A stretch of 38,155 bases of DNA from Methanosarcina sp. (GTDB lineage: Archaea > Halobacteriota > Methanosarcinia > Methanosarcinales > Methanosarcinaceae), in assembly GCF_028693135.1 (NCBI RefSeq), contig NZ_JAQUVZ010000031.1:1-38155 (forward strand), given 5' to 3'. Shown piece after piece: positions 15,031 to 37,749 of this stretch. Positions within the stretch are counted from its first letter, which is position 1. The number at the start of each line of letters is the position of its first letter. Made by a program: the position numbers and the translations under genes. Below the pieces are notes generated by a model. It saw only the letters and a list, made by a program, of their open reading frames with translations. It made no database searches and was not told where the DNA came from.

Positions 15031-15040
15031 ATAAAAAAAA
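15031..15040 (-). terminator. T-run terminator after tRNA-Ser
   Basis: Directly after the 3' end of the tRNA, the minus strand reads eight Ts then AT. Archaeal RNA polymerase commonly terminates at such T runs. Confidence 0.6.
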
Positions 15041-15125
15041 CGACGAGAGGGGGACTCGAACCCCCGGGATGCGGGGCATCACGGGATTAGCAATCCCGCG
15101 CCATACCGGGCTTGGCTATCTCGTC
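15041..15125 (-). tRNA. tRNA-Ser (GCU)
   Basis: The minus strand folds as a class II tRNA. The acceptor GACGAGA pairs with TCTCGTC and the D arm carries GGTATGGC. The anticodon stem CGGGA/TCCCG encloses the loop TTGCTAA, with anticodon GCU reading AGC and AGU. The long variable arm GATGC-CCC-GCATC and the T arm with GGTTCGAGTCC follow. CCA is not encoded. A TATA box (TTATATATAT, about 15165-15174) lies upstream, and a T run on the minus strand follows the gene. Confidence 0.97.
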
Positions 15126-15273
15126 ATATTGAACTTTAGAAACGCGTCCCCTAAAACGCATTTCATATATATAACCTTTTCCGGAGAAAAATACTTTAAA
15201 TAAATTGGTTCTCCTGGAAAATTGCAGTTAAGTTACAAAGCCAATTTCTCAAAAACTATTAAATGATGTGCTT

Positions 15274-15592
15274 AGTGATGAGCACACCGTAGGTCGTTGT
15301 ACCTCAGAGACTTCAGTAGGCTGATATCTCTTCTCCACCCCGCGACCCCACAAGCGACGGTTGCCCATGGTGAGTCTGCTCCCTTCCGGGCCTCGACCGG
15401 TTTCCACGGTTAGGGTATGAGAACCTGTTTTCCAGCAAGTCCACATACCTGCACTATCCAAGCAGGACGGGGCTTCTCAGTTGAGACTTCAGGCTGGAAT
15501 CTCTTTGACGCATCTTCCTTTGGCTTCGTTCCCCGCATATCGGCGATTTCGGGTTACAGGTAACGCCGGGCTACCCGAACTAGCTCATCAGC
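15274..15592 (-). ncRNA. ffs: Archaeal SRP RNA (7S RNA)
   Basis: This is the RNA scaffold of the signal recognition particle. On the minus strand, the S-domain helix 8 core GAGGCCCGGAAGGGAGCAGA (about 15376-15395) carries the universally conserved GGAAG and GGAGCAG loop bases that bind SRP54. The 5' part has the Alu-domain segment GTTACCTGTAACC with a UGUAA match to the UGUNR motif. The ends pair as helix 1, TGATGAGC with GCTCATCA (15583-15590 with 15276-15283). A TATA box at 15613-15620 (TTTTATAA on the minus strand) predicts transcription from about 15592. The length near 319 nt is normal for archaeal 7S RNA. The end points are accurate to a few bases. Confidence 0.95.
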
Positions 15593-15986: not shown

Positions 15987-17612
15987 ATGAGATATGGAGT
16001 TGCAATTGACCTGGGAACAAGTGGGTATCGGGCTCAGAAGATTGACCTTGATACCCAGGAAATTAAAAGGACAGTAATAACATTGAGAAATCCTCTTCCC
16101 GGAGCGAATGTGATGGATCACATGGACTTCGCAATTCACTACGGGCAGGATCTTGCGCATGGGCTTTCCGTAAATGCGGTAAAGACCCTTTTCCAGACCC
16201 TTGATGTTAAAAGCGGAGAACTTGACAGAATTTCAATCTGCGGAAACCCTATCCAGTTATCTATTTTTCAGGGAATCAGTATTGAAGACCTGGCTTATGC
16301 AGGGGAACGGAAGAAAAAGAAGTATAATATACAGGAACAGAACAGGAATGCGAGAATAATATCCAGCAGCGAAATTTCAGGGCTTGAGGAATTTAACTGT
16401 GAGGTTGTTGTCCCTCCTGCAATAAAACATGAAGTCGGCGCCGATGCCCTTGCTCTTATAATTAAATCGGGAATGCTTAACAGCGATGAGATTTCGATTG
16501 CAACTGATTATGGGACAAATGCCGAGATGGCGCTCAAAGTAAAAGACATTATTTATACAGGCTCGGCGGCTGCAGGCCCGGCTCTTGAAGGGCAGCAGAT
16601 AAAATATGGGACCCTTGCTTCTCCTTATGCAATTTCTGATTTTGAATTTGAGGATGGAGCATTGAGGAATTACGTATTGAACGAAGAGATGAAACCCGAT
16701 CCGGGAGATCTTGTGGATCCCAAAACCGGAGAAATTCTGGAAGAGGGAAAGATCAAAGCCAGGGGAATTACAGGTACTGGGGTTATTGCCCTTCTGGAAA
16801 AAGCTATTGGGCACGGTCTTGTTGAACTCCCTAAAGTCAAAACCCCGGATCAATTAATTCATCTGCAGAACAAAATCACATTTTCGGAAAAAGACCTCAA
16901 AGAAGCCGGAAAAGCCATAGGCGCGATCAGAGCAGGGCATATCACACTCTGTGCGGTTGCAGGCATAGAACTGACAGATATTGATACGGCGTATATGGCA
17001 GGTGCTGCCGGCACATATATGGATGCGGAAAAAGCCCAGAAAATTGGCTTGATCCCTTACTCTACAGGGAATATTGCCCAGCTCGGGAACACCTCTCTTG
17101 CTGTTGCAAAGGAAATCCTACTTTCGGAAGAAAGGCTGTGGGAGCTTCAGGATATCGCAAGCCAGATTATAGGCACTCACACAATGTTTGCGACTGCTCC
17201 TGAGTTCCGGGATGCCTATGTCCTTGAACTTGCGTACTGGGAAGAAGGAATGCCCTTTAAGATGTTTAAAAAATTCCTTAAAAAGAAAGGGCTTCCCTCA
17301 CTTGATGAGCCCATAGCCAATCCTGTGGTAGATAAGCGGGTGGAAAGAGATATTCCTGTTCTTGGTGAAGAAGGTCTCTATGTACTCGAAAGAGTCGGGA
17401 CCTATATGACAATGGTTGTCGACTGCCCCGAGTGCAGGAAGTGCATAAAAGTCTGCCCCAACGACGCCATTACAATTGACGAGGAAAACAGGGTTATGAT
17501 AAGCACCGACCTATGCGAAGGTTCACATTGCCAGAAATGTATCAGAGCCTGCCCACCTGATAAATTTAACTGGGAGAATCTGGAGGTCTTTAAACCAGAG
17601 CAACCGGAGTAA
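15987..17612 (+). CDS. ramA: RamA-type corrinoid protein reductive activase
   Basis: This 541-residue protein (about 60 kDa) has the architecture of RamA. That enzyme uses ATP to reduce the Co(II) corrinoid of methylamine and related methyltransferase systems to active Co(I). The N-terminal ASKHA-like part begins GVAIDLGTSGYRAQ and includes ATDYGTNAEMAL and VAGIELTDIDTAYMAGAAGT. The C-terminus carries two [4Fe-4S] motifs: CPECRKCIKVCP and CEGSHCQKCIRACP. A GAGAGGGGAG ribosome binding site precedes the ATG. No methyltransferase or corrinoid protein gene is adjacent, so it could be RamA itself or one of the RamA paralogs that Methanosarcina species carry. A hairpin follows the stop codon. Confidence 0.92.
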   Translation: MRYGVAIDLGTSGYRAQKIDLDTQEIKRTVITLRNPLPGANVMDHMDFAIHYGQDLAHGLSVNAVKTLFQTLDVKSGELDRISICGNPIQLSIFQGISIEDLAYAGERKKKKYNIQEQNRNARIISSSEISGLEEFNCEVVVPPAIKHEVGADALALIIKSGMLNSDEISIATDYGTNAEMALKVKDIIYTGSAAAGPALEGQQIKYGTLASPYAISDFEFEDGALRNYVLNEEMKPDPGDLVDPKTGEILEEGKIKARGITGTGVIALLEKAIGHGLVELPKVKTPDQLIHLQNKITFSEKDLKEAGKAIGAIRAGHITLCAVAGIELTDIDTAYMAGAAGTYMDAEKAQKIGLIPYSTGNIAQLGNTSLAVAKEILLSEERLWELQDIASQIIGTHTMFATAPEFRDAYVLELAYWEEGMPFKMFKKFLKKKGLPSLDEPIANPVVDKRVERDIPVLGEEGLYVLERVGTYMTMVVDCPECRKCIKVCPNDAITIDEENRVMISTDLCEGSHCQKCIRACPPDKFNWENLEVFKPEQPE

Positions 17613-17639: not shown

Positions 17640-18137
17640 ACTCAGGTACTTATAATATAGAAAATAGTTATTCTGGAACTCCCAATACATCATTACGGAG
17701 AGTAATGCCGATGGGCGAATATAGTTAAAAATATTTAAAAACAATGCTCAGCATTACTCTTATTATTTTTAAAGATTGGAACAACTATCTGGAGCGAGAA
17801 TCCATAGCTGGCAAAAAGTTAAACCTCGACAGATCTCCAGGACGGTGCGACTCACATTAATAAAAAACTAATTCAATAAAGTAGGATGTGGAAGTTGACG
17901 CATTTCTCCCCTGACCTAAACACAGGTGTTTCTTGCTAAGGTTTTATGAATAGGCAAACAGTATATGAATGGGCAAACAGTCTCTAAATATGGACTCAGT
18001 TTGGAACAAATACTATTTGAACCTCAAAAAGAGTAGAATAAGCAAGAAAAATAATGGTCAGTTTGTGAATTCAAAGTAAAATTGAGACGTAATCTTTTAA
18101 CAAATTGAGAGTTTTGGGTGGTTGTGTGCATAATAAA
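17640..18137. other. Intergenic with IS605-like relic and short repeats
   Basis: At 17893-17925, GTTGACGCATTTCTCCCCTG plus ACCTAAA resembles an IS200/IS605-type end (compare 75-95 and 28122-28150). Beyond it is a 19-bp imperfect direct repeat, TATGAATAGGCAAACAGT then TATGAATGGGCAAACAGT (17945-17981). No coding sequence is supported. Confidence 0.35.
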
Positions 18138-18279
18138 CACAAATTATATAAATAACTTCATCGTAAGGAATTATTGAGGCATCTAATCCACTTTCACACC
18201 ACAAATTATCTACCACATCTAACCCAATTAGATTTTTTAATTACGCAACGCCGTTTTTTAGATGCCTCATTACCCAATT
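18138..18279 (+). ncRNA. Candidate small RNA, copy A of a duplicated promoter-hairpin element
   Basis: A TATA box (AAATTATATAAATA, 18141-18154) stands about 25 bases before TGAGGCATCTAA (18175-18186). That arm pairs perfectly over 12 bases with TTAGATGCCTCA (18258-18269). Inside is a second hairpin, ATCTAA-CCCAA-TTAGAT, followed by a T run. The intervening strand is C- and A-rich (CACTTTCACACC, CTACCACATC), which would leave single-stranded segments able to pair with G-rich ribosome binding sites. A near-identical copy lies at 18691. No frame in it is coding. It could instead be a small non-autonomous mobile element, but conservation of the promoter outside the inverted repeat favours an RNA gene (inference). 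Confidence 0.5.
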
Positions 18280-18690
18280 AAAGCAACGCTGATTAGGATA
18301 TATAATCATTATATATAATCTTTTATATTCAATTTTTAAATTATAAATCAAGTTAGCGATCTTATTTAGTATGAGAAGTGAATTTTGTGCAGAATAAAGC
18401 CAAATTCCTGAAAACTCAAAAGCTTTAAACTCAAAAGCTTTAATATCTACAAAAATTTCTCTCTTTTTAGTTTTAGATAAATCCGGGTCCGGGCATCCGG
18501 TGTACTACTCATAACATAATATCTTATAAAATTATCCTGTACATAAAACCCTGTGAAATATTTTTGAAAATTATGCCTGTAAAGGCTGAGATTTTTAATG
18601 ATAGGCAACCTAACTGAAACCTATGGGGATGATCCCGAAAAGGGGGAATCGGGGAATGAATTATTTAAAAAGGGTAAGGGGTACAACTAG
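18280..18690. other. Spacer between the two candidate small RNA copies
   Basis: This is AT-rich sequence without a gene. It contains a palindromic AT stretch (ATATATAATCATTATATATAA, 18298-18318) and a short direct repeat of AACTCAAAAGCTTTAA (18414-18442). Nothing here explains why the element is duplicated. Confidence 0.5.
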
Positions 18691-18832
18691 CACAAATTTT
18701 ATAAATAACCTCTACATAGGAGTTAATGAGGCATCTAATCCACTTTCACACCGTAAATCATCTACCACATCTAGCCCAAATAGATTTTTAGTTACGCAAC
18801 GCCTATTTTTTAGATGCCTCAATCACCCAATT
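18691..18832 (+). ncRNA. Candidate small RNA, copy B of a duplicated promoter-hairpin element
   Basis: This is the second copy of the element at 18138, the same length (142 bp) and roughly 85 percent identical. The TATA box (AATTTTATAAATA) and the 12-bp closing stem TGAGGCATCTAA / TTAGATGCCTCA (18727-18738 with 18810-18821) are unchanged. So are the loop blocks CCACTTTCACACC and CTACCACATCTA. Differences cluster between the TATA box and the start of the stem, as expected if stem and loop are constrained. The inner hairpin is kept in shortened form (ATCTA/TAGAT). A plus-strand frame of 82 codons crosses the element but is interrupted in copy A, so it is not coding. Confidence 0.5.
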
Positions 18833-19080
18833 TGGATGAAACGTTTGATAAAATCTTCTATTGGATTATAGATTTTCTCAGATATAAATATTTATATTTA
18901 ACATTGCCTATAATTATGCAGGGTATCTAGTTGTTTATCGAACAAAATTACCTGATAAATACCATCTTTCAGAAGGAAAACACAGGCAAATACCTCTGTA
19001 TATCTCCCTACTTTTTTATTGACTGGATAGAATAAGGAATGAATGTAAAAAAGAACGAATGTAAAAAGGAAAGAAAGAGG

Positions 19081-20427
19081 TCAGAGGGAATAGGCTTCGC
19101 GAAGTTTTACAACGAGCGCTTCGACCTGTTCCACTGCTGTTCCTATATACTTATCCGGGTTTACGAGGTTCTCAATATCTCCTGCACTAAGGTACCTTGA
19201 AACAGAAGGGGTATCCAGAAGTACCTGTTTGAAATGCTGCCCGGTATCATGGGCTACCATCGCTGCATTCCGGACAAGTTCATGGGCTTCCTGCCTACCT
19301 ACACCTCTTTTCGCAAGTTCTATCATTACAGCTTCTCCCATGTTCAGGCCTCTTAGCAGTTCCAGGTTCCTGCGGATATTTTCGGGATAGAACCTGAGAT
19401 TCTCAAGCACACTGATCCCAAGTTTTATAATATGGTCTGTGAGTACACAGGCTTCCGGGAAGACAACCCGTTCACAGGAAGAATTTGTAAGGTCCCTTTC
19501 GTCCCAGAGGGTATTGTTAAGAAGTTCAGGCTCAATCATTGCTCTTACGATCCGTGCAAGCCCGCAGATCTGCTCGGATTTTATAGGGTTGCGCTTGTGA
19601 GGCATGGTGGACGAACCTACCTGCTTTTTCCCGAAGCTTTCCTCAACCTCGGCGATTTCACTGCGCTGAAGGGTCCTGATTTCTATGCCGATCTTGTCCA
19701 GAGTCGTAACAGTATTTGCCATCCACATCACAAACTCGGCATGCCTGTCCCTCTGGATGATCTGGTTTGAGACATCCACAGTCCCGATTCCGAGGTGCTG
19801 CATTGTGAGTTTCTGGATCAGGATTCCGGATTTTCCAAAAGCTGCCTGGGTCCCGACAGCTCCGGTCATCTGCCCCACAGTAGCTCTTGGAGCCAGCTCG
19901 TATAAGCGGTCCAGATGCCTTGAAATCTCGGAAGCCCAGATTGCAAAACGGAGTCCATATGTTGTGGGGACACCTATCTGACCATGTGTCCTTCCGCAGC
20001 AAACCGTGTTCTTGTGAGCTTCAGCCTGGTTTACCAGAACCCTGAGCAGGATTTTGAGTTTGTCTTCCAGGAGATCAATTGCGTTCTTTATCTGGAGCGC
20101 TGTTGCTGTGTCAAGGATGTCGTTTGAAGTAGCTCCGAAATGGACCCACTTTCCTGCATTGTCTCTGCACTGCTCAGAAATCGCAACAACCACAGCCATC
20201 ATGTCGTGGTGGATTTCGGCTTCGATTTCGTCAACTCTTTCAGCCTTTACAGAGGTAATACATTTGGAGATTATCTCAGCCGCTTCTGCGGGGATGAGTC
20301 CCATATCCGCTTCTGCCTGGGCAAGGGCGGCCTCTGTCTGTAAGATTCTTTCAAGTCGGTTTTCCTGACTCCATACATACTTCATTTCCGCTGTACCGTA
20401 CCGGTATTCTATAGGATGAATAGCCAC
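19081..20427 (-). CDS. purB: Adenylosuccinate lyase
   Basis: This 448-residue enzyme catalyses two fumarate-releasing steps of purine synthesis: SAICAR to AICAR, and adenylosuccinate to AMP. The start is MAIHPIEYRYG from GTG at 20427, which has AAGGTGA at the right distance; a GTG three codons earlier is less likely. Family motifs are in order: HFGATSNDILDTATAL, GRTHGQIGVPTTYG (catalytic histidine region), and GSSTMPHKRNPIKSEQ (the mobile catalytic serine loop, near residue 260). Length is normal for archaeal PurB. It stands alone on the minus strand with an AT-rich promoter region upstream. Confidence 0.97.
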   Translation of the reverse strand: MAIHPIEYRYGTAEMKYVWSQENRLERILQTEAALAQAEADMGLIPAEAAEIISKCITSVKAERVDEIEAEIHHDMMAVVVAISEQCRDNAGKWVHFGATSNDILDTATALQIKNAIDLLEDKLKILLRVLVNQAEAHKNTVCCGRTHGQIGVPTTYGLRFAIWASEISRHLDRLYELAPRATVGQMTGAVGTQAAFGKSGILIQKLTMQHLGIGTVDVSNQIIQRDRHAEFVMWMANTVTTLDKIGIEIRTLQRSEIAEVEESFGKKQVGSSTMPHKRNPIKSEQICGLARIVRAMIEPELLNNTLWDERDLTNSSCERVVFPEACVLTDHIIKLGISVLENLRFYPENIRRNLELLRGLNMGEAVMIELAKRGVGRQEAHELVRNAAMVAHDTGQHFKQVLLDTPSVSRYLSAGDIENLVNPDKYIGTAVEQVEALVVKLREAYSL

Positions 20428-21167
<740 letters not shown>

Positions 21168-26835: not shown

Positions 26836-28050
26836 TTACTCATGTCTCAGTGCATCCACAGGAGCCAATTTTGCAGCCTTGCTTGCGGGATAAACCCCGG
26901 CAGCAACTCCCACAATGAGTGCAACGATGAGGCCTGCCTCAAAGATGTAAGGGGAATAAAGGAAGGGGAGATTAAGGATATTTGTGACGGCATAAGCCCC
27001 TCCTACTCCCACCCCTACCCCCAGGAGGCCTCCGAAAAGGCTAAGAATAACGGATTCTATGAGAAAGAGCAGAAGAACGTCGGTGCCTGAAAACCCAAGT
27101 GCCTTCATAATTCCAATCTCCCGGGTACGTTCCGTAACTGTGACAAGCATGATGTTCATTATTCCTATAGACCCTACAAGCAGAGAAATCAGAGCCACTA
27201 CAACCAGGAAATTCTTAAGAGAATCCGCAAGCTGATTCGTCTGTTCAAGGATATCTGCCTGATTGAATATGGTATAGGGCTTTGCGTCTTCATCGTCGAT
27301 ATCCCGTGAAGAGACTCCGAAGTTCCGGGCAAGCCGTTTATCTACCTCGTCCGAGACAACGTCCAAATCCTCAAGGTTGTCGGACATGGCAAAAAAGGCT
27401 GAGAAATCATCTTCTTCGAGCATCTGGTTGATGGTTGACACGGGAATAAAAATGCTCGTGTCCCGATTGATTCCCCCTCCTCCGAAAGATGTACCAGGGC
27501 TTTCAATGATGCCTTTTACCTTGAACTTCCGGGTCACCGTCCTGCCCCCTTCCAGACGCAGGGTAATGTCTATAGAACTGCGGGTGGATATGTTCCTGTC
27601 AAATTTTTCGTTTGCAACTTCGGATCCGATTGCTGCCGAAAACGCATCCTGGTTGCTTATGAAGCTGCCACTTTCCATAATTATATTTGCAGTCTCCTCA
27701 TAATCTCCAGTTACTCCCGCGATTTCTATATTTTTCTTCTGAGAGAAGGAAGTTACCTCCCCAAGCTGCTGTTTTATGGGAGAAACCCCGCTGATTCCGG
27801 GAGTTTTTTTGATGATTTGCAGCTCATTGTTGTAAAAAAGGTTAGGTTCCTGACTGTAAATAATAATAAAATTGGAACCCTGGGCATTTATCTCCTCTTC
27901 AAAAAAAACATTGAAACTCTCCCCAAGAGATACGTTTGCAACTACCGCAGCAATCCCTATGATAATGCCAAGCATAGTCAGGCCTGAGCGGAGCTTTGCG
28001 CTTGATATGCTTCCAAGAGAGATACCGATAGCTTGCTTTACCTTCAGCAT
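26836..28050 (-). CDS. MacB-like ABC transporter permease, cassette 1
   Basis: This 404-residue permease has the MacB/FtsX plan. One membrane helix lies near the N-terminus (RSGLTMLGIIIGIAAVVANV). A large extracellular MacB-PCD domain spans about 45-270, and three C-terminal helices follow (NFLVVVALISLLVGSIGIMN, then ESVILSLFGGLLGVGVGVGG and AGLIVALIVGVAAGVYPASK). The characteristic VTERTREIGIMKALG coupling segment is present. The ATG at 28050 follows GGGTGG; the ATG at 28062 has no site. It is very similar to the permease at 33757-34971, with the same length. Its ATPase and COG1361 partners lie 2.6-4.5 kb away, separated by a divergent kinase gene. Confidence 0.92.
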   Translation of the reverse strand: MLKVKQAIGISLGSISSAKLRSGLTMLGIIIGIAAVVANVSLGESFNVFFEEEINAQGSNFIIIYSQEPNLFYNNELQIIKKTPGISGVSPIKQQLGEVTSFSQKKNIEIAGVTGDYEETANIIMESGSFISNQDAFSAAIGSEVANEKFDRNISTRSSIDITLRLEGGRTVTRKFKVKGIIESPGTSFGGGGINRDTSIFIPVSTINQMLEEDDFSAFFAMSDNLEDLDVVSDEVDKRLARNFGVSSRDIDDEDAKPYTIFNQADILEQTNQLADSLKNFLVVVALISLLVGSIGIMNIMLVTVTERTREIGIMKALGFSGTDVLLLFLIESVILSLFGGLLGVGVGVGGAYAVTNILNLPFLYSPYIFEAGLIVALIVGVAAGVYPASKAAKLAPVDALRHE

Positions 28051-28942
28051 ACACCCACCCATTTTAAAGTTTCGGGGAGTTTAATTTTGGAATGAATCTT
28101 CATAAATCTTCAGCAGGAAATCCCTGAGTCTTTAGCTCAGGGGTAGTTGACGCAGGTATAGAGGGACTTAAGGGGCTTCAGCCCTCAGGCAATCCATTCA
28201 GGATTTATTTCCAAAAACTCCTGGATATTAATGTACAAATATATCCCAGTATGATACTAATGTGATAATATACTCCAGTAGATATTAATCTTCAAATATA
28301 TAATAGATCACTGTTTGAATAAATGGGGGATTTTTCCATGGGTGCAGCTTTCGGCAGGTAGACGTAAAATTCCATTCAATTTTCTGTTGATATCGATTTT
28401 GTCATAACTTTTGAAATTATATTTAAATCAAAAACTACTACATGTTGACCATATCATCATTAATATCTATTTACAATAAATAGAATAAATGACAAAGTGG
28501 ATTAAATATATATTCCGGATGACACTGATTTTCAATAGAACCTACAAAAAAATAACAATCAAAGATTTTTATATGTTAGGATATGCTTGATGCTGAATAT
28601 AGGCTGGGTGATCTGTTACCAATGGTTTTCTGATGTAACACAGGCGTTAAAAAATGAGCCAACCTCACAACATTGTAAATTAGCACATTTCTTATATATG
28701 CTGATGTTATATGGTAAGAAAGATAAGCATGTGTAGGAAATACTGAAAGTTAAGACTAAAGAATAGATAAATATGAAGTATCATTCTAAAAATTTTATAA
28801 ACTTATCCCAAATATGTTAAACTAGATTTAGATTGCTGAAAGTTGGCATCTATACCTTCACAGCCTTTGCTTCATGCCCCATTCAAATCCAAACTATGCG
28901 CTGAAATATGCACTATTGTAAACACATGGAGGGGGAAAGATT
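28051..28942. other. Intergenic region with IS605-like relic hairpins
   Basis: No coding sequence is supported in this 890-base AT-rich gap. At 28122-28142, CCCTGAG-tctttag-CTCAGGG, followed by GGTAGTTGACGC, resembles the ends of IS200/IS605 elements. A second hairpin, AGGGGCttcaGCCCT, lies at 28171-28185. The rest contains promoter-like AT stretches for the plus-strand kinase gene. Confidence 0.45.
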
Positions 28943-30379
28943 TTGATAAACAATACTGACAAAGACCCCGAACTTTTTTCAAACATTCAACAGAGCTCCC
29001 AGCTCTCCGCCGTATATAGAGATATCGAAGAACTGACCGAACTACTTGTTGCATATTTTAAACAAGGGATTGAAAAAGGAGATCACTGCCTCTGGACCGT
29101 TACGGATTCGCAGGCAGCTGAAAGAGCAAAAAATGAACTTGAGAAGGCAGGAGTGGATGTCGAGAAATACATCACTTCGTCTCAATTAGAGATTCTGCCA
29201 ACCGGCACACTTTCTAAAAGTATTCTCCTGCTTGAATCCGCAGTAAAAGAACTTGTGGATGAGAAAAGCGGAAAAGCCTTTTCCGAAAGGTTTTCTGGAT
29301 TTAGAATGAATCTCGATATTAATAGTGCCGGAAGCTCCTTCAAGCCCTGCCTTGAAAGGTTAGAAAAAAGCCTTGAAGAAATCGGTCCAGATAATAGAAA
29401 CCTCACATTTCTCTGTACCTCCCTGCTTGAAGAATTATCAGGCAGCACACTTATTGAGCTGGTGGAGGAAAAGGGCGTTCTCGTTAAAAGAAAAGGCAAA
29501 TGGGAATATCTGGTGAACACCTGCAACATAAACGGGCAAAAAGAGCTGGAAACCACCCTTCTCAAAGCAAAAAAAGATGCTGAAGCCACCAACAGGGCAA
29601 AAAACAGTTTCATAATGAATATGAGCCATGAGCTTCGGACCCCTCTCAATTCAGTAATAGGCTTTTCTGACCTGCTACTGGAAGGAGCGTTTGGGCCCAT
29701 GAATACAAAACAAGCAAAGTACGTCAACAATATCCTGATAAGCGGGAAAAGCCTGCTAGAAATTATTAACAACCTGCTTGACATCTCAAGGCTTGAAGCC
29801 GGTGAAAAAACCCTCAAATATGAGGATGTGGACGTAGCAAGCCTCATTGGAGAAGTGAGGATGAGCCTCCTTTCGCCTGCTTCGATCAAAAAGGTCACCG
29901 TTGAATTGAATATAGACCCTTCTGTGAAAAATATTCGGGCTGATATTACAAAATTCAGGCAGATCCTGTATAACCTGATCAGCAACGCCATAAAGTTTAC
30001 TCCTGCAAGAGGAAAGGTAATCATCAGTGCCTGTAAAAAAGAAGGAGTTCTTGAGGTCAAGGTTTCGGATAATGGAATAGGGCTTTCAAAGGAGAGCCAC
30101 GAAAAGATATTTATGCCCTTTACACAGGCAGATTCTTCTGCCGCCCGTGGGTACGGGGGAGCCGGCCTTGGGTTATATATTGTCCGGAATTTCATAGACC
30201 TTCACGGTGGAAAGATCCGGGTTGACTCAGAAACCGGAAAAGGAAGTACGTTTACATTCACCCTTCCGGCAGAATCGGAAAATGCTCCTCTCCCGGAGAA
30301 TAAAACGAAAAAAGCAAACTCTTCTCTTAAAGGAGTAAAATCGAAAAAAATGGACTCGACACCTGAACCAGGAAATTGA
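28943..30379 (+). CDS. Sensor histidine kinase with N-terminal MEDS domain
   Basis: This 478-residue soluble kinase has an N-terminal MEDS-like sensory domain (about 20-190; FSNIQQSSQLSAVYRDIEEL, KQGIEKGDHCLWTV), a domain found in methanogen and methylotroph regulators. A HisKA dimerisation domain with the phospho-acceptor histidine in NMSHELRTPLNSVIG lies near 230. The HATPase domain has the N box QILYNLISNAIKFTP, G1 DNGIGLS and G2 GYGGAGLGLYIV. No membrane helix or receiver domain is present. The TTG start is supported by GGAGGGGG about eight bases upstream. No response regulator gene is adjacent. It sits in the middle of the split ABC cassette, on the opposite strand. Confidence 0.93.
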   Translation: MINNTDKDPELFSNIQQSSQLSAVYRDIEELTELLVAYFKQGIEKGDHCLWTVTDSQAAERAKNELEKAGVDVEKYITSSQLEILPTGTLSKSILLLESAVKELVDEKSGKAFSERFSGFRMNLDINSAGSSFKPCLERLEKSLEEIGPDNRNLTFLCTSLLEELSGSTLIELVEEKGVLVKRKGKWEYLVNTCNINGQKELETTLLKAKKDAEATNRAKNSFIMNMSHELRTPLNSVIGFSDLLLEGAFGPMNTKQAKYVNNILISGKSLLEIINNLLDISRLEAGEKTLKYEDVDVASLIGEVRMSLLSPASIKKVTVELNIDPSVKNIRADITKFRQILYNLISNAIKFTPARGKVIISACKKEGVLEVKVSDNGIGLSKESHEKIFMPFTQADSSAARGYGGAGLGLYIVRNFIDLHGGKIRVDSETGKGSTFTFTLPAESENAPLPENKTKKANSSLKGVKSKKMDSTPEPGN

Positions 30380-30661
30380 AATTAGAAAAACAGCTACTTA
30401 ATAAGAGAACTTAAATTAAAATATCCAGTAAAAATAAGCCGGACCCAGTGGAAGATACCCATCAGAACAAATTGATTGAGGGATACCGGAATTACTCCAA
30501 TAATCTCCCTACCAATCAGGGGGTTGTAACGGCAGTGAGCGGTCTGAAACTGCCTATACTTCCGACGCAACTCCCAAAATTTATGTTTAAATATTTATCT
30601 CCCTATCTCTCTGGCTTCTAATAAATCTTATTTCAGGACGATTTTGGTTTCTCCGGAGTCC

Positions 30662-31918
30662 TCATTTGTTTTCCCTCTGTCTTTTTCTGTAAATCAGTAC
30701 ACCGGCCACAGCGAGGGCAACAAGCAGGATACCAATTACAATCAGACCTGAACTAATTCCCTGTTTTTCCTCAACCTGCTGAATACGAAGATTACTTACC
30801 AGATTTTCGTGGTTGTTTATGCCGTTGCCGTAACTTGCAGAAAGACTAAGATTTATCGGTTCAGAGGTTCCCCCTATGTTTTCCGAAGATTGATCTGCTA
30901 TGGCATCAAACTCTATTGTGAAAAGCTCATCAGCATCCATGGGCCCGATGAAATATTCGGCAGGGTAAAATTTCACCCCTTCAGCTTCAGGTTTTATGCT
31001 TACAGAGTCAAATCCATTTGGGTGGGTATTTGCCACATCAAACTCGAGGGTAGCTTCACCGTTTACCAGTCTGAGGGGTTTTGAAGAGATCACCCTTACA
31101 TTCGAAGAGTCAACTTCAAGCGGAATATTCTTCCGGCTATTGTAGTCAAAAGAATTGCCCTCGATTACAAGTTCAAGGTTGTGAGTTCCTTCACTTGCAT
31201 CTTCAGAAACCATAATGTTAAATGTTAGTTTGATGCTATCTCCGGGACCAAGGAGCCCCATTTCTCCGTAGGGAACCTCAAGAACAACTACTTCATCAGA
31301 CAGTGGTCTCAAAACGGCAGCCTGGATTCTCGCATTGGTATCATAGTCTTTTCCATCAATGGTAACAGTAGGAGTTGTTGCGGTATTGCTGAGGGTTACT
31401 GTAACAGTACCTCTATCTCCGGGCATGAAAGCTTCAGGGTTAGAGATTACCTCTTTGAGTTCCAGAGTACCTTTGCTGTCAAAGGTTTCAGTACCTATCC
31501 TTATATCGAAAGTTTTCTCACTCCAGGGGCTGGTTTTATCGATCCTTGTACGGATGTCAATTGACCTGGTTCCCTTCTGAGCGTCCTTGTCCACGAAAAG
31601 GTGAAACTCTTTGGATGCAAATTTGTCGGGAGAAAGAGCCCCTATATTCTGCACCGCGTTTGCCTGGGAATCAAGAGAAAAGGGATATTCAGGGATTATT
31701 TCAATATCAACATCATCTGCCCGGTCTCTACCTACATTTTCTACCTGAACTGTAAGATCCAGATACTGCCCTATTTTAGCAGGGTAAGGGTTTGTTTCAA
31801 CTATTGTAATTTTCAGGTTTGCACTGGCAGTTGCCGCAGAAGCAGGTGCTGCAAAAAGAAATGAAACTAAAAGCAGAAATATAACTACAAAAGTAATTGG
31901 AGTCTTCAGTCCTGTCAT
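30662..31918 (-). CDS. COG1361-type secreted, membrane-anchored protein, cassette 1
   Basis: This 418-residue protein has a signal peptide (PITFVVIFLLLVSFLFAAPA, cleavage likely after ASA). The extracellular part is built from Ig-like/CARDB-type repeats, for example LDLTVQVENVGRDRADDVDI and GTVTVTLSNTATTPTVTIDG. A C-terminal membrane helix (GLIVIGILLVALAVAGVLIY) is followed by RKRQRENK. COG1361 proteins are linked to S-layer and envelope structures in Methanosarcina. It is about 75 percent identical by eye to the protein at 35014-36258. In that cassette the gene sits between the ATPase and permease genes and probably feeds or receives the exported cargo. The ATG at 31918 has AGGATGA spaced six bases upstream; GTG at 31924 is possible. 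Confidence 0.88.
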   Translation of the reverse strand: MTGLKTPITFVVIFLLLVSFLFAAPASAATASANLKITIVETNPYPAKIGQYLDLTVQVENVGRDRADDVDIEIIPEYPFSLDSQANAVQNIGALSPDKFASKEFHLFVDKDAQKGTRSIDIRTRIDKTSPWSEKTFDIRIGTETFDSKGTLELKEVISNPEAFMPGDRGTVTVTLSNTATTPTVTIDGKDYDTNARIQAAVLRPLSDEVVVLEVPYGEMGLLGPGDSIKLTFNIMVSEDASEGTHNLELVIEGNSFDYNSRKNIPLEVDSSNVRVISSKPLRLVNGEATLEFDVANTHPNGFDSVSIKPEAEGVKFYPAEYFIGPMDADELFTIEFDAIADQSSENIGGTSEPINLSLSASYGNGINNHENLVSNLRIQQVEEKQGISSGLIVIGILLVALAVAGVLIYRKRQRENK

Positions 31919-32507
31919 TCTCACTCATCCTGATTGACTAAATTTGGAAACTTCATTGGATGTTCTGGTTTACTCCGAATTATTCTGATTATCATATTAT
32001 TCTGAATATTATATTAGTCTGTTTTATCCTGAAAAGATTTTGCACCAACTATGTTGGTCGAAATCACATTTATTGTGAAACCCAACGCCAGGAAAATCAA
32101 GGAGATCATTACTCAAAAGAAGAAAGTGGAAAAGGTTTCTAATATAGTGAGATCCAGGGGATTTAAGTCCGGCTAGTTCAGCAGATTTGGAAGTAATATC
32201 AAGAAATCGATCAGGCTCCTTCTGTTGGTAAAAATCCCGACCTTCCAAAATACAGTTGCAAGAAGACAGGTTCTCCCTGAATAATTTATTGGATTTATTC
32301 CAAAATAACCTCAACTGGCATCTCTCGTTCTTTCTTTTCACGCGCTGCGCTCCTCTTGAACTCACCTGCGTACCGTAGATCTAAACGAACTCAGTAGCTG
32401 TGTTGTGGGATCTAATACCAGAATATCAACTATGTAGCAGGAGACGACTGTATTATTTTGAGTATTGGATAATTCCGAGTACACTGAATCTTCCGAATTA
32501 TTCCAGC
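31919..32507. other. Probable insertion between cassette 1 ATPase and COG1361 genes
   Basis: In cassette 2 the same gene junction is only 12 bases. Here 590 bases intervene. A 12-bp direct repeat, TCCGAATTATTC, occurs at 31974-31985 and at 32492-32503, close to the two genes. Removing what lies between would bring the genes to about 70 bases apart. Inside is a 113-codon minus-strand frame with no recognised domain and a GGAGCGCAGCGCG block like the IS200/IS605 relics elsewhere in the window. The element may be a degenerate transposon. Confidence 0.45.
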
Positions 32508-33395
32508 TTATTCCGAGTTTTTCTGGATCATTCCGTCTTTTACGAGCACTATCCTGTCAGCATACTTCGCAATATCCGGATCATGTGTAATCATCACGAT
32601 AGTCCTGCCCTCTTCATTAAGTCTGGTAAACATGCCGAGGATTTCACAACCTGTTTTGGAGTCCAGGTTTCCTGTGGGTTCATCCGCAAGGAGAATTGCC
32701 GGGTCATTGATTAGAGCTCTGGCAATAGCTACCCTTTGTGCTTGCCCTCCTGAAAGTTCACCTGGCTTGTGGTGCATGCGGTCCTCAAGCCCAACCATTT
32801 TAAGAAGGTCTTTTGCCCTTTTGCGCGCATCTACACCCTCTCTTGTATTAGCATAGGTGGGCAGTTCGACGTTTTCAAGAGCTGTAAGCCTTGGAATTAG
32901 GTTGAAGGTCTGGAACATAAAGCCTATCTCAAGTCCCCTGAGCCTGGCAACCTCCTTATCGGATAGTGTATTGATATCAAGGCCTTTAATCATGATTTTC
33001 CCTTCTGTAGGTCTGTCGAGAAAACCTATGAGGTTCATAAGTGTACTTTTTCCTGACCCTGAAGGGCCCATTATAGCAAGAAATTCTCCTTCCCTTACTG
33101 TCAGGTTGATGTCACTAAGAATGGGGACTTCCATATTTCCCAGAGTATAACTTTTTTTGACATCGATCACCTCTATTACCGGGGGCCCTTTTTGCAAAGT
33201 TTCTCCTCCGGCACCGCTGTCCGGGCGACTTGAACGGGGCAATTCACACTTAAATGGCTCTTTGTCTGAAGTTTTATCCGAGGCAAAAAGGCCTTCTTCC
33301 GGGGGCATCCTTTCTTCATTTCCACTACTTCTGCCTGCTTCCGGATTCGAACCTCCAGGAGACGAAACTTCATTATTGAGTATTTTAGTCTTCAT
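32508..33395 (-). CDS. MacB/LolD-type ABC transporter ATPase, cassette 1
   Basis: This 295-residue ATPase is of the LolD/MacB class. Walker A is MGPSGSGKSTLMN. The signature is LSGGQAQRVAIARAL, Walker B is ILLADEPTGNLDSKTG, and the switch histidine is in VMITHDPDIAKYADR. The first 70 residues (rich in Ser, Gly, Pro and Glu, such as SSPGGSNPEAGRSSGNEERM) form an extension not found in the cassette 2 ATPase. GAGGG before the ATG confirms the start. It powers export or envelope remodelling with a MacB-like permease, here encoded about 4.5 kb away on the same strand. Confidence 0.93.
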   Translation of the reverse strand: MKTKILNNEVSSPGGSNPEAGRSSGNEERMPPEEGLFASDKTSDKEPFKCELPRSSRPDSGAGGETLQKGPPVIEVIDVKKSYTLGNMEVPILSDINLTVREGEFLAIMGPSGSGKSTLMNLIGFLDRPTEGKIMIKGLDINTLSDKEVARLRGLEIGFMFQTFNLIPRLTALENVELPTYANTREGVDARKRAKDLLKMVGLEDRMHHKPGELSGGQAQRVAIARALINDPAILLADEPTGNLDSKTGCEILGMFTRLNEEGRTIVMITHDPDIAKYADRIVLVKDGMIQKNSE

Positions 33396-33756
33396 AAACC
33401 CTCAGTCATTGTTCAAACTTTAGATATATTATTTTACGGAGTATTGTACAATATCAATATTTCCTGGTTTTAAGCTTTAAGTGTTTGTTATACACATTAT
33501 TTTGTAATATAAAATCTGCAAAAGAATTAGTTTTATTGACCAAAATTTTAAATTTTTTATACATATTCATCAAGTATGGTGCCAAGTTTGAGAATCTCTA
33601 TGCAGGCTCGTTTAATAATTTCAATTTTTAATTGAGCTGGCTAAAAATGGAAAACTGGAACGAAAAAACTGAAAAAGAAAAGCTGGAAATGAATAAAGCC
33701 GAAAGATGCTGAATAATGAAAAGATAAGGGTCATTTTTTTCAAACTTGAAAGACCC
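33396..33756. promoter_or_regulatory. Intergenic region, promoter of cassette 1
   Basis: No gene is present in this 360-base gap. A TATA-like AATAATATATC (about 33425-33435, minus strand) lies some 35 bases before the ATPase start. The gap separates the 3' end of the cassette 2 permease from cassette 1. Confidence 0.45.
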
Positions 33757-34971
33757 TTACTCATACCTTAAGGCATCCACAGGATTCATGCTTGCAGCCT
33801 TTCTTGCGGGATACATCCCTGCACCTACACCTACAATGACCGAAACCAGAATCCCAATTTCGATTAACTTGAATGGAAAAACCGGTGGAAGTTTGAGGAC
33901 AGTTTCAAGGATGTAAGCTCCAAGCCCACCTATTGCAGTCCCCATCAGTCCCCCGAAGACGCTGACCATCACGGACTCCAGCAAAAAAAGGGATTGAATA
34001 TTGGAGCTGCTGTAACCTACGGACTTCATTATACCAATTTCTCTTGTACGTTCGGTAACTGTTACGAGCATGATATTCATGATCCCTATCGAACCCACGA
34101 ATAGTGAGACTAAAGCAAGGACAAGCAGGAAAGAACTTAAGGCATCTCCTAATGCTGCGGTCTCTTCAAGGACATCTACCTGATTGAATATGGTATAAGG
34201 TTTTGCGTCTTCATCATCAATATCCCTTTCAGGAATTCCAAAGTTTCGAGCAAGCCTTCTATCCACTTCATCCGAAACATCCCGGATATTCTCAGAGTTT
34301 TCTGCCATCGCAAAGAAAGCTCCATAGTCCTGTTCTCCAGTCATCTCATTCAGGGTAGAAATAGGGATATAAACTATCATGTCTGTACTGCCATCTCCCC
34401 CTACAATAGTTTCTTTTGAATCCTCCAGAATTCCTTTTACTTTGAAGCTTTTACTTACAAGCGTGCCGTCCTCCTGTCGAAATGCAATATCAACATTGCT
34501 TCTATGAGAGATACTCCTGCCAAATTCCTCTTTTGCAAGGTCATACCCAAGAACAGCAGAGTAAATGTCCTTATCAATCAGGAAACTTCCCTCTTCCATC
34601 TTAATTCCCTGGATTTCCTGAAAGTCCCCATTTACACCCACAATGCTCACGCTTTTAGTATCTGAAAGAAAGCTAATCTCTCCAGGTATTATTTTCCTGG
34701 GAGATACTCCGGAAATTCCGGGAGTATTTTCAATGATTTCAAGCTCACTTCCATAGAAAAGGTTTGGCTGGTCACTATATGCAATTATAAAATTTGAGCC
34801 TACAGAGGTGACCTCATCTGTAAAAAATTGATTGAAGCTGGCTCCAAGTGATGCGTTTATGATTACTGCTGCAATACCTATCACAATTCCGAGTGTTGTG
34901 AGTGCAGACCGAAGCTTGGAGCTGCGTATACTTCCAGAAGCAATACGGGCTGCCTGTACAAATTGTATCAT
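33757..34971 (-). CDS. MacB-like ABC transporter permease, cassette 2
   Basis: This 404-residue permease is a close paralog of the one at 26836-28050. It has the same N-terminal helix (RSALTTLGIVIGIAAVIINA), extracellular PCD domain and three C-terminal helices. The coupling motif VTERTREIGIMKSVG lies before the penultimate helix, and it ends MYPARKAASMNPVDALRYE. GGGGGGT stands five bases before the ATG at 34971. The gene follows the COG1361 gene by 42 bases, completing an intact operon of ATPase, surface protein and permease. The lack of a periplasmic adaptor is normal for a single-membrane archaeon. Confidence 0.94.
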   Translation of the reverse strand: MIQFVQAARIASGSIRSSKLRSALTTLGIVIGIAAVIINASLGASFNQFFTDEVTSVGSNFIIAYSDQPNLFYGSELEIIENTPGISGVSPRKIIPGEISFLSDTKSVSIVGVNGDFQEIQGIKMEEGSFLIDKDIYSAVLGYDLAKEEFGRSISHRSNVDIAFRQEDGTLVSKSFKVKGILEDSKETIVGGDGSTDMIVYIPISTLNEMTGEQDYGAFFAMAENSENIRDVSDEVDRRLARNFGIPERDIDDEDAKPYTIFNQVDVLEETAALGDALSSFLLVLALVSLFVGSIGIMNIMLVTVTERTREIGIMKSVGYSSSNIQSLFLLESVMVSVFGGLMGTAIGGLGAYILETVLKLPPVFPFKLIEIGILVSVIVGVGAGMYPARKAASMNPVDALRYE

Positions 34972-35013
34972 ATTTTACCCCCCAAATATGATATTTAGCC
35001 AATCATCATCTGC

Positions 35014-36258
35014 TTATTGTTTTTTCTTTCTGTAGATTAGAAAGGCTGCAGGGATACAGACCAAAAGAAGTCCACCCGCAATTGCAGCTGTAGAGCTATT
35101 CCCAGGAGACTGGGAATCAGTTTCAAGTTTCAGGTTACCTGCGACATTTTCATGCCTGTTAATCCCATTGTTGTAGTTTGCAGTTACATTCATAATTATG
35201 GCTCCCGACTCTTCCTTAATGGCTTCCGAGTTGTCTATCATTGCATCAAACTCTATTGTGAAAAGCTCGTCAGGATCCATAGGTCCTATGAAATATTCTG
35301 CAGGGTAAAACTTTATACCTTCAGCTTCAGGTCTTATGCTGACAGAGTTAAGCTCGTTGGGGTGGGTATTTGCTACATCAAACTCCACGGTAGCTGTCCC
35401 ATCTATCATCCGTAGTGGTTTTGAAGGAATGACTTTTATATTCGAAGAATCCACTTTAAGCGGAATATTCTTCTTGCTGTTGTAATCAAAGGAGTTTCCC
35501 TCAATTGCAAGTTCAAAATTGTGAATTCCTTCCCTCGCATCATCTTCAACCTCTACATTGAAGGTCAACTTGATACTGTCCCCCGGGCCCACAAGCCCCA
35601 TTTCATAATATGGAGCTTCACTAACAGTTATTCCGTCAGATAGAGGTTTCAAAACCGCAGCCTGGATTCTCGCATTGGTGTCATAGTCTTTTCCATCTAT
35701 AGTAACTGTAGGCGTGGTTGCTGTGTTTCGAAGGGTTACTGTAACAGTACCCCTATCTCCAGGCATAAAGATTTCAGGAGATGAGATGATTTCCGCAAGC
35801 TCAACAGTACCTTTGCTGGTAAAGGTTTCAGTACCTATCCTTATATCAAAAGTCTTCTCACTCCATGGACTGTCCTGTCCAGTTCGGACGCGGATATCAA
35901 TTGAACGAACTCCTTTCTGGGCTTTTTTATCAACATACAGATAGAATTCCTTTGTAGCAGTTCTTCCAGGATTGAGAGCTCCAATGTTCTGGATGGTGTT
36001 TGCATTTGAATCCAGAGTGAAAGGATACTCAGGGACTATCTCGATGTCAGCATTATCGGCTTTGTCCCCTCCGACGTTTTCCACCTGTATGTTCAGGGTC
36101 AGGTATTCTCCTATCTTTGCAGGATAAGGATTTGTTTCGACGATCGTTACTTTCAGGTTTGCGCTCCCTACGGCTGCAGAAGCCGGAGACGCAAAAACAG
36201 AAGCTATCAGAAGCAAAGAAAAAAAAGCTGCAATAATACGCTCTTTAATCAATTCCAT
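35014..36258 (-). CDS. COG1361-type secreted, membrane-anchored protein, cassette 2
   Basis: This 414-residue protein has the same build as the paralog at 30662-31918. A signal peptide (AAFFSLLLIASVFASPASA) comes first, then Ig-like/CARDB-type repeats starting TIVETNPYPAKIGEYLTLNI. A stretch shared almost unchanged with the paralog includes DSPWSEKTFDIRIGTETF, and a C-terminal helix (TAAIAGGLLLVCIPAAFLIY) ends RKKKQ. GGTGGGG precedes the ATG at 36258. The gene starts 12 bases after the ATPase gene ends and 42 bases before the permease gene, so all three are one operon. I infer that the protein is the extracellular partner or substrate of the transporter. Confidence 0.9.
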   Translation of the reverse strand: MELIKERIIAAFFSLLLIASVFASPASAAVGSANLKVTIVETNPYPAKIGEYLTLNIQVENVGGDKADNADIEIVPEYPFTLDSNANTIQNIGALNPGRTATKEFYLYVDKKAQKGVRSIDIRVRTGQDSPWSEKTFDIRIGTETFTSKGTVELAEIISSPEIFMPGDRGTVTVTLRNTATTPTVTIDGKDYDTNARIQAAVLKPLSDGITVSEAPYYEMGLVGPGDSIKLTFNVEVEDDAREGIHNFELAIEGNSFDYNSKKNIPLKVDSSNIKVIPSKPLRMIDGTATVEFDVANTHPNELNSVSIRPEAEGIKFYPAEYFIGPMDPDELFTIEFDAMIDNSEAIKEESGAIIMNVTANYNNGINRHENVAGNLKLETDSQSPGNSSTAAIAGGLLLVCIPAAFLIYRKKKQ

Positions 36259-36270
36259 GTATTCCCCACC

Positions 36271-37008
36271 TTAGTTATATTGAATTTCCCCATCTTTTAC
36301 CAGGACAACCCTATCAGCATATTTTGCAATCTCAGGGTCGTGTGTAACTATTACTACTGTTCTTCCCTCATTGTTCAAATCCATGAATATTTGTAGGATC
36401 TCATAACCTGTTTTCGAGTCCAGGTTTCCAGTCGGCTCATCAGCAAGGAGAATTGAAGGATCATTGATGAGTGCCCTTGCAATTGAGACCCTCTGAGATT
36501 GGCCTCCGGAAAGCTCTCCTGGCCTGTGGTGCATACGGTCCTGCAACCCCATAAGTTTCAGGAGTTCCGTTGCACGCTTTCGTGGATCGATGCTCCTCGA
36601 ATTGGCAAAAGTCGGGAGCAAAACATTCTCAAAAGCGGTCAGGCGAGGAACAAGGTTGAAAGTCTGAAAAACAAAACCTATCTCAAGTCCCCTGAGATGA
36701 GCAAGTTCTTCATCTGACATGCTGTGCAGATTCCTTCCCCTTATAAGGACCTGCCCTTCCGTAGGCCTGTCAAGGCAGCCTATCAGGTTCATAAGGGTAC
36801 TTTTCCCCGATCCCGATGGGCCCATAATAGCCAGTAATTCTCCTTTTTCGATTTTAAGGTTAATACCTGAGAGTACCGGAACCTCCATGGCTCCAAGAAT
36901 ATAATTTTTCTTGACATTGGAAACTTCGACAATAGGGTACCTATTCTCAGGTAAACCTTCGACAATAGAGTGCCTATTCTCAGGTAAACTGTTCTTATTA
37001 ATGTTCAC
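36271..37008 (-). CDS. MacB/LolD-type ABC transporter ATPase, cassette 2
   Basis: This 245-residue ATPase carries Walker A MGPSGSGKSTLMN, signature LSGGQSQRVSIARAL, Walker B ILLADEPTGNLDSKTG and the switch histidine in VIVTHDPEIAKYADR. It is the first gene of the intact cassette. The start is taken as the GTG at 37008, since GGGGGGGG (37011-37018) lies just before it; a TTG at 37020 is possible. The N-terminus contains an 11-residue duplication (LPENRHSIVEG, LPENRYPIVEV) that arises from a 33-bp tandem repeat (36925-36990). The eight-base G run at the start region could slip in replication. Confidence 0.92.
   Translation of the reverse strand: MNINKNSLPENRHSIVEGLPENRYPIVEVSNVKKNYILGAMEVPVLSGINLKIEKGELLAIMGPSGSGKSTLMNLIGCLDRPTEGQVLIRGRNLHSMSDEELAHLRGLEIGFVFQTFNLVPRLTAFENVLLPTFANSRSIDPRKRATELLKLMGLQDRMHHRPGELSGGQSQRVSIARALINDPSILLADEPTGNLDSKTGYEILQIFMDLNNEGRTVVIVTHDPEIAKYADRVVLVKDGEIQYN
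36925..36990. repeat. 33-bp in-frame tandem duplication in ATPase N-terminus
   Basis: Two adjacent 33-bp units, beginning TTCGACAATAG at 36925 and 36958, differ at only a few positions. They encode two 11-residue repeats (LPENR-x-x-IVE-x) at the start of the cassette 2 ATPase. Such duplications in a non-core N-terminus are tolerated. Confidence 0.9.
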
Positions 37009-37749
37009 ATCCCCCCCCAATTTTACTGAGATATGATCAGAAAAATCACATTGAATAATCTTAATTGTTTTTACTCCTTATGTAAGAAAATCCATTTTAA
37101 TCTATGCGCTCTTAATTTTTTTCAAAAGATCAACTTTCAAGTCCACATGCTATTGATTTCTAGGTCCCATTGCAGGCTTTTAAAATTGAACTTTGAAATT
37201 GATCACTAGGCACACTGTTTTTGACACTTAAATTGACTATTGAGTCTCAAACATGATTTTTGTTTGAAATCACCGGGCATAAAAATAAGCATAGTTTTGG
37301 ACAGTAGAAATTGGAAATTGAGATTTATTTCTGGAAAAAAATGGCTTTTGCAGGAAATTTATTCTTTTAGCCTTCTACCTATCTTTATTATTTTTAACTG
37401 ATATATCTCATACATCTGTTGTATAAATGTAATCGAAAAAAATGAAAAACAGTAGTCTCTGAATCAATCAGTTCTAAAAAGTTATTCTTATGCCGGGGTA
37501 GGCATCCAAATATTTAGGTCAAGGTTATAAACTTATGTAAAACATTTAAACATCTATTGAATTGAAAATTATCTTTTCTGTTATGCGGGTACTTGCCTCT
37601 AAATATTTGAGGACTATTTTTCATAAGGAGGTGTAGTTCTGTCCAATTTATATAACCTTGTATATATAGCTAAATATAGCCACTGCCAGATAGAAATTTG
37701 AACTGTGGATCTCAAGAATAAGAGAAAATTCCAGCAATAATCTTTCTAA
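37009..37749. other. Intergenic region with degenerate repeats and a strong TATA box
   Basis: No gene is supported. Two imperfect direct repeats lie at about 37488-37520 (TTATGCCGGGGTAGGCATCC then AAATATTTAGG) and 37580-37612 (TTATGCGGGTACTTGCCTCT then AAATATTTGAGG). AAGGAGGTG occurs at 37626-37634 without a good start codon after it. TTTATATAA (37647-37655) is an excellent TATA box that could drive the small frames to its right. Confidence 0.5.

Follow-up and report, generated by a model that had tools for sequence, protein, structure and literature searches.

The window, that is, the whole stretch of 38,155 nucleotides of Methanosarcina sp. DNA analyzed here, contains a 142-bp sequence twice, at 18138–18279 and 18691–18832, which raises the question of what this duplicated sequence is. 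The original prediction read each copy as a promoter followed by a hairpin and regarded the two as small RNA (sRNA) genes. Comparison with related genomes makes it very probable that the copies are small regulatory RNA genes conserved as a pair, which occurs in 16 genomes and is missing from Rfam.

Architecture of the two copies

The two copies, a and b, are 87% identical over 142 bp, and they lie 553 bp apart from start to start with a gap of 411 bp, so that the predicted duplication and its spacing of about 550 bp were confirmed. The similarity is far above the chance level, since matches to the element exist in 16 genomes, with E-values as low as 1e-55 (BLAST) and 1e-30 (covariance model). 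Each copy consists of CACAAA-TATA, followed by the arm TGAGGCATCTAA, a 71-nt loop, and the arm TTAGATGCCTCA, where the two arms form a 12-bp stem. The predicted TATA box and 12-bp closing stem were therefore located in both copies, and the distance from the TATA centre to the stem start is approximately 27 nt in each, close to the 25 bases proposed. The features of the locus are as follows.

15987..17612, + strand: upstream neighbour, RACo/RamA-like reductive activase gene (RACo C-terminal domain and ferredoxin; PF14574, PF17651, PF12838)
18112..18126, + strand: block upstream of copy a, TTTTGGGTGGTTGTG, candidate regulator site
18138..18151, + strand: BRE/TATA of copy a, CACAAATTATATAA, with the TATA box TTATATAA at 18144–18151
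18170..18274, + strand: predicted body of sRNA a, with the closing stem 18175–18186 paired with 18258–18269 and the loop segments AATCCACTTTCACACC, ATCTACCACATCTAACCC, and ATTACGCAACGCC
18310..18329, + strand: A/T-rich T-tract block 3′ of copy a (alignment of ten genomes), candidate terminator
18691..18704, + strand: BRE/TATA of copy b, CACAAATTTTATAA, with the TATA box TTTTATAA at 18697–18704, lacking the block found before copy a
18722..18826, + strand: predicted body of sRNA b, matched by the covariance model, with the closing stem 18727–18738 paired with 18810–18821
18882..18899, + strand: palindromic block ATATAAATATTTATATTT, located 3′ of copy b, which may be a terminator or an opposite-strand promoter
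19081..20436, − strand: downstream convergent neighbour, purB, adenylosuccinate lyase gene (PF00206, PF10397)

In the proposed mechanism, the copies would be paralogous intergenic sRNA genes, each with its own TATA promoter driving + strand transcription, and the transcript would begin at the closing stem or slightly upstream of it. Its 5′ end would pair with a region approximately 93 nt further on to form a stem of 9–12 bp, and the stem would hold open a loop of about 70 nt, in which three conserved C/A-rich segments would remain single-stranded. These segments may pair in trans with the start-site regions of several mRNAs, in the manner of sRNA154 and sRNA162/171 of this genus, and the two promoters may let one RNA answer two different signals. 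We are confident, short of certainty, that the sRNA pair is real and transcribed. Between the two copies, a 15-bp perfect tandem repeat, AAACTCAAAAGCTTT, is also present at 18412–18441.

Distribution of the pair and its locus

Among 40 relatives searched by BLAST, six Methanosarcina genomes each contained two copies, and the others contained none. The covariance search that had been proposed as a check of the original prediction was carried out with two models. Model R1, built from these 12 copies, matched additional copies in Methanosarcina and in two other genera, here called g21 and g12. Model R2, built from 31 copies, was run on 112 genomes of the family Methanosarcinaceae, where it found 31 copies in 16 genomes of the three genera; these were the same 16 genomes that R1 had already matched, and the only further match was a weak one (E 0.007). 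The Rfam 15 families gave no match to the element at the gathering score, and the only RNAs they identified in the window were an archaeal SRP RNA gene (15276–15590, − strand), which lies approximately 2.5 kb from the sRNA pair, and the adjoining tRNA-Ser(GCT) gene (15040–15126). Viral contigs contained no match to the element, and a short pattern derived from it matched twice in bacteria (Allobacillus and Vicingaceae), probably by chance.

Tandem pairs of copies, with start-to-start distances of 418–874 bp, occur in 14 genomes at one common locus between the RACo/RamA-like activase gene and purB, as judged from synteny. In G040, a genome of g12, both copies lie near contig ends and one of them is beside purB, which fits a tandem locus broken by assembly. 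In G053, a copy lies 1.3 kb from a KaiC-like gene, and no RACo-like match was found within the 8-kb stretch examined. In G005 (L016 6640–7471), copy a has an intact loop but no longer has the TATA box or one of the stem pairs, and the RACo-like gene beside it matches over residues 2–66 only.

The covariance search did not find the pair in approximately 20 Methanosarcina genomes, although purB is present there; the element is therefore dispensable. Two of the genomes without the pair, G019 and G012, carry apparent relics at the expected place, consisting of a promoter stub and the 3′ arm. The relic matches are weak (E 0.05–0.7), and loss after a common origin would be the simplest reading of the patchy distribution.

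The original prediction had named a mobile mini-element as the main alternative, in which a MITE-like sequence would have landed twice by chance. The inverted 12-mers at the ends and the near identity of the copies are what such an element would leave. However, there is one locus per genome, whole-genome and whole-family scans found no dispersed copies, the flanks are the same in Methanosarcina and a sister genus, and the TATA box upstream of the inverted repeat is conserved. Because the locus is single and syntenic and no copies occur elsewhere, this alternative was rejected, and it is given hardly any probability.

Constant RNA bodies and diverged promoters

The single-strand folding of the RNA bodies gave z = −6.5 for copy a and −6.6 for copy b relative to dinucleotide shuffles, and none of the 200 shuffles folded as well. 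The advantage over the shuffles comes almost wholly from the closing stem, which is paired in 96% of the cells of the alignment, compared with 32–43% for slid versions. One stem pair varies among U-A, U-G, and C-G, and the stem contains one compensatory and several wobble changes in total. The covariation in the stem did not exceed that in column shuffles, because the stem hardly varies (6 of the 12 pairs are invariant). The closing stem is supported. The inner ATCTA/TAGAT hairpin of the original prediction exists in both copies of the window but is not conserved; it is missing from the consensus fold and is broken in G007 and in the a copies of g21, and it was rejected as a functional part.

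Among ten Methanosarcina genomes, the identity is 0.75–0.96 between the TATA region and the end of the stem, and it drops to 0.2–0.5 beyond these limits. The loop is conserved to the same degree as the stem; its segments AATCCAC(T/A)TTCACACC and ATCTACCAC are nearly invariant across the three genera, and GTTACGCAACGCC is kept as well, with G007 and some g12 copies as the exceptions. The stem-to-stem span is 91–95 nt (81–86 nt in g12) despite internal variation of the loop, and the offset from the TATA box to the stem is constant within each copy type. The TATA/BRE is kept in nearly all of the 31 copies.

The two bodies within one genome differ at 9% of sites, and orthologous bodies differ at 8–11%. 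Between the promoters of a and b, 25% of sites are different, compared with 7–17% for orthologous promoters. Since the difference between a and b is no larger than that between orthologues for the RNA but is larger for the promoter, the RNA has been held constant while the promoters diverged. This constancy may be due to selection, gene conversion, or both, and the two genes are very probably sibling sRNAs, which would share one product and may answer to different inputs. The block TTTTGGGTGGTTGTG bears on these possible inputs; it precedes the a copies only in Methanosarcina, not the b copies, and in g21 it precedes both. The block and the CACAA that closely follows it make up an imperfect TTGTG-N-CACAA inverted repeat (18112–18143), and the repeat with the block is a possible binding site of a regulator. 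With no mismatches allowed, the block was found once in its own genome. A regulon sharing the block, searched as TTTTGGRYGGTTGTG, was rejected, since the counts of matches with two mismatches equalled those of the reversed-pattern control.

The conservation also bears on a coding reading, in which the element would be a short mRNA or a dual-function RNA for a His-rich leaderless micropeptide, MRHLIHFHTVNHLPHLAQIDF. In many copies, translation beginning with the NTG where the stem starts would give a His-rich peptide of approximately 21 residues, and every copy stays free of stop codons in this frame over at least 15 codons. An ATG stands at the predicted start in most Methanosarcina b copies, and a leaderless sORF has been reported in sRNA154. 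However, 16 copies begin with TTG and two have lost the start codon (AGG and TTA), frameshifts occur in G007_a, G155_b, G062_b, and g12, and the variants are distributed over codon positions 1, 2, and 3 as 10, 5, and 5, so that only 5 of the 20 fall at position 3. The lost starts, the broken frames, and the codon-position counts do not form the pattern of a protein-coding sequence; the small ORF was therefore rejected, and a coding role is considered very unlikely.

Conserved A/T-rich blocks lie approximately 40–60 nt past the stem, outside the reported copies, and each copy has one. The block is the palindrome ATATAAATATTTATATTT in most b copies and is rich in T-tracts in the a copies. The palindrome of copy b shows an identity of 0.89 among ten genomes, which is a conservation peak outside the RNA body, and it is unique within 2.4 Mb of G007. 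The A/T-rich block is likeliest to be a U-rich terminator and may alternatively be an opposite-strand promoter. If it is a terminator, the transcript may be approximately 160–180 nt long rather than the 95–100 nt originally predicted.

Possible modes of action

The conservation of the element, its stem, its promoter, its single locus, its non-coding pattern, and the divergence of the promoters with constancy of the RNA are established by the genome comparison. The sRNA pair of the original prediction is accordingly well supported by the conserved TATA/BRE, the fixed spacing and span, the conserved loops, the unique syntenic locus, and the lack of a coding signature; the occlusion of ribosome binding sites (RBSs) by complementary loops, which was predicted in addition, did not find statistical support. 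In the target test, the loops showed no advantage over shuffled ones in binding to the 2,381 gene start regions predicted in 2.4 Mb of G007, the longest contiguous matches between loop and target in G007 were at the chance level, and pattern scans of three to five genomes for long complements of the loop segments gave nothing recurrent. The target prediction for the loop segments thus yielded no conserved site, and a general anti-RBS function of the loops is not supported.

Sibling intergenic sRNAs are a known kind of system, and several characterized sRNAs resemble the element in part. The element shares the traits that are common to the RBS-masking sRNAs of Methanosarcina, in that it is intergenic, has its own archaeal promoter, a conserved structure, and exposed single-stranded segments, and has no ORF. 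Like sRNA154 of M. mazei (approximately 120 nt), it is intergenic, and its ends are paired in a long closing stem around C/A-rich loops. The sRNA154 locus of G007 has a 14-bp end-to-end stem, and its motif TTTCACAC lies in the 5′ part of the loop, at a position similar to that in the element. This locus fits the published M. mazei primers save for mismatches at engineered restriction sites, and G007 is therefore M. mazei or a close relative. Unlike the element, sRNA154 lies at MM3337/MM3338 and has an NrpR-type operator (GGTA-N6-TACC) and stable inner hairpins; there is no sequence homology between the two beyond 8-nt words, and the element lies between the RACo-like gene and purB, while the sRNA154 locus of G007 is elsewhere and contains GGTAGTAAGATACC.

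The presence of two homologous intergenic sRNAs in one genome is also known for sRNA162 and sRNA171 of M. mazei, where sRNA162 masks an RBS by a single-stranded segment (PMC3510493). These sRNAs differ from the element in their length of approximately 190 nt, three stem loops, 39-nt linker, location at MM2441/MM2442, and presence also in M. barkeri. The element has one closing stem, lies at another locus, and has no match in approximately 20 other Methanosarcina genomes. In bacteria, AbcR1/AbcR2 and NgncR_162/163 are likewise reported to be paralogous tandem sRNAs alike in sequence and structure; they differ in their unrelated sequences and known targets.

A further reading equates the pair with sRNA41 of M. 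mazei, an intergenic sRNA that is reported to mask RBSs within the polycistronic ACDS (cdh) mRNAs; the original prediction proposed such masking for the element as well. One site in the M. mazei-like G007 is striking. Within 2.4 Mb of this genome, GGTGTGAAA stands immediately in front of an ATG only once, at the RBS of cdhE in the cdh (ACDS) operon; it is a perfect complement of the loop UUUCACACC, and ACDS RBSs are the targets reported for sRNA41. However, only the cdhE start fits; the other start sites of the cdh operon rank mid-list among all genes, most genomes with the element have GGTGTAAAA at the cdhE RBS, with one mismatch, and genomes without the element carry the same cdhE RBS. The ACDS targets, cdhE among them, and hence the identity with sRNA41, are therefore not supported, and the orthology is judged unlikely. 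The cdhE RBS (L109 15442–16864) reads GGAGGTGTGAAAA in G007, and nearly every Methanosarcina genome has GGAGGTGTRAAA there, with or without the sRNA pair.

The serious rival to mRNA pairing is a protein-binding role, in which the RNA would be a decoy or scaffold whose loops hold an Sm-like, TRAM, or other protein, and the pair would set the free level of that protein. The long, near-invariant single-stranded loop and the related motifs AUCUAAUCCAC, AUCUACCAC, and AUCUAGCCC within one loop are consistent with it, as is the lack of a conserved mRNA complement in the pattern scans of three to five genomes. The third motif, however, is lost in the a copies of g21 and in g12, and the probability assigned to this role is low. 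By analogy with sRNA154, sRNA162/171, and sRNA41, control of translation in trans is plausible for the sRNA pair. That the RNA works by base-pairing to mRNA is put forward tentatively, at slightly below an even chance, and the best reading as a whole, namely a sibling sRNA pair with an end-to-end stem that pairs with mRNA as sRNA154 and sRNA162/171 do, is considered reasonably probable. It is a rather slim possibility that the locus represents a new archaeal sibling-sRNA system, in which a nearly invariant RNA is encoded twice at a fixed locus under promoters with different regulators, and its unusually large, nearly invariant open loop of about 70 nt, kept open by a single end-to-end stem, titrates either several mRNAs or a protein that binds RNA.

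In the literature surveyed, targets have been worked out for only three Methanosarcina sRNAs. The pair adds a covariance-model family missing from Rfam, its invariant loops are precise baits for target capture, and an sRNA pair with two promoters in genetically tractable methanogens (M. mazei and M. acetivorans) provides a clean test of duplicate regulatory RNAs in archaea. Elsewhere in the window, at 26836–37020, two paralogous sets of ABC transporter genes, each with an ATPase, a permease, and a membrane-anchored repeat protein, lie side by side (e.g., 30662–31924 and 35014–36258).
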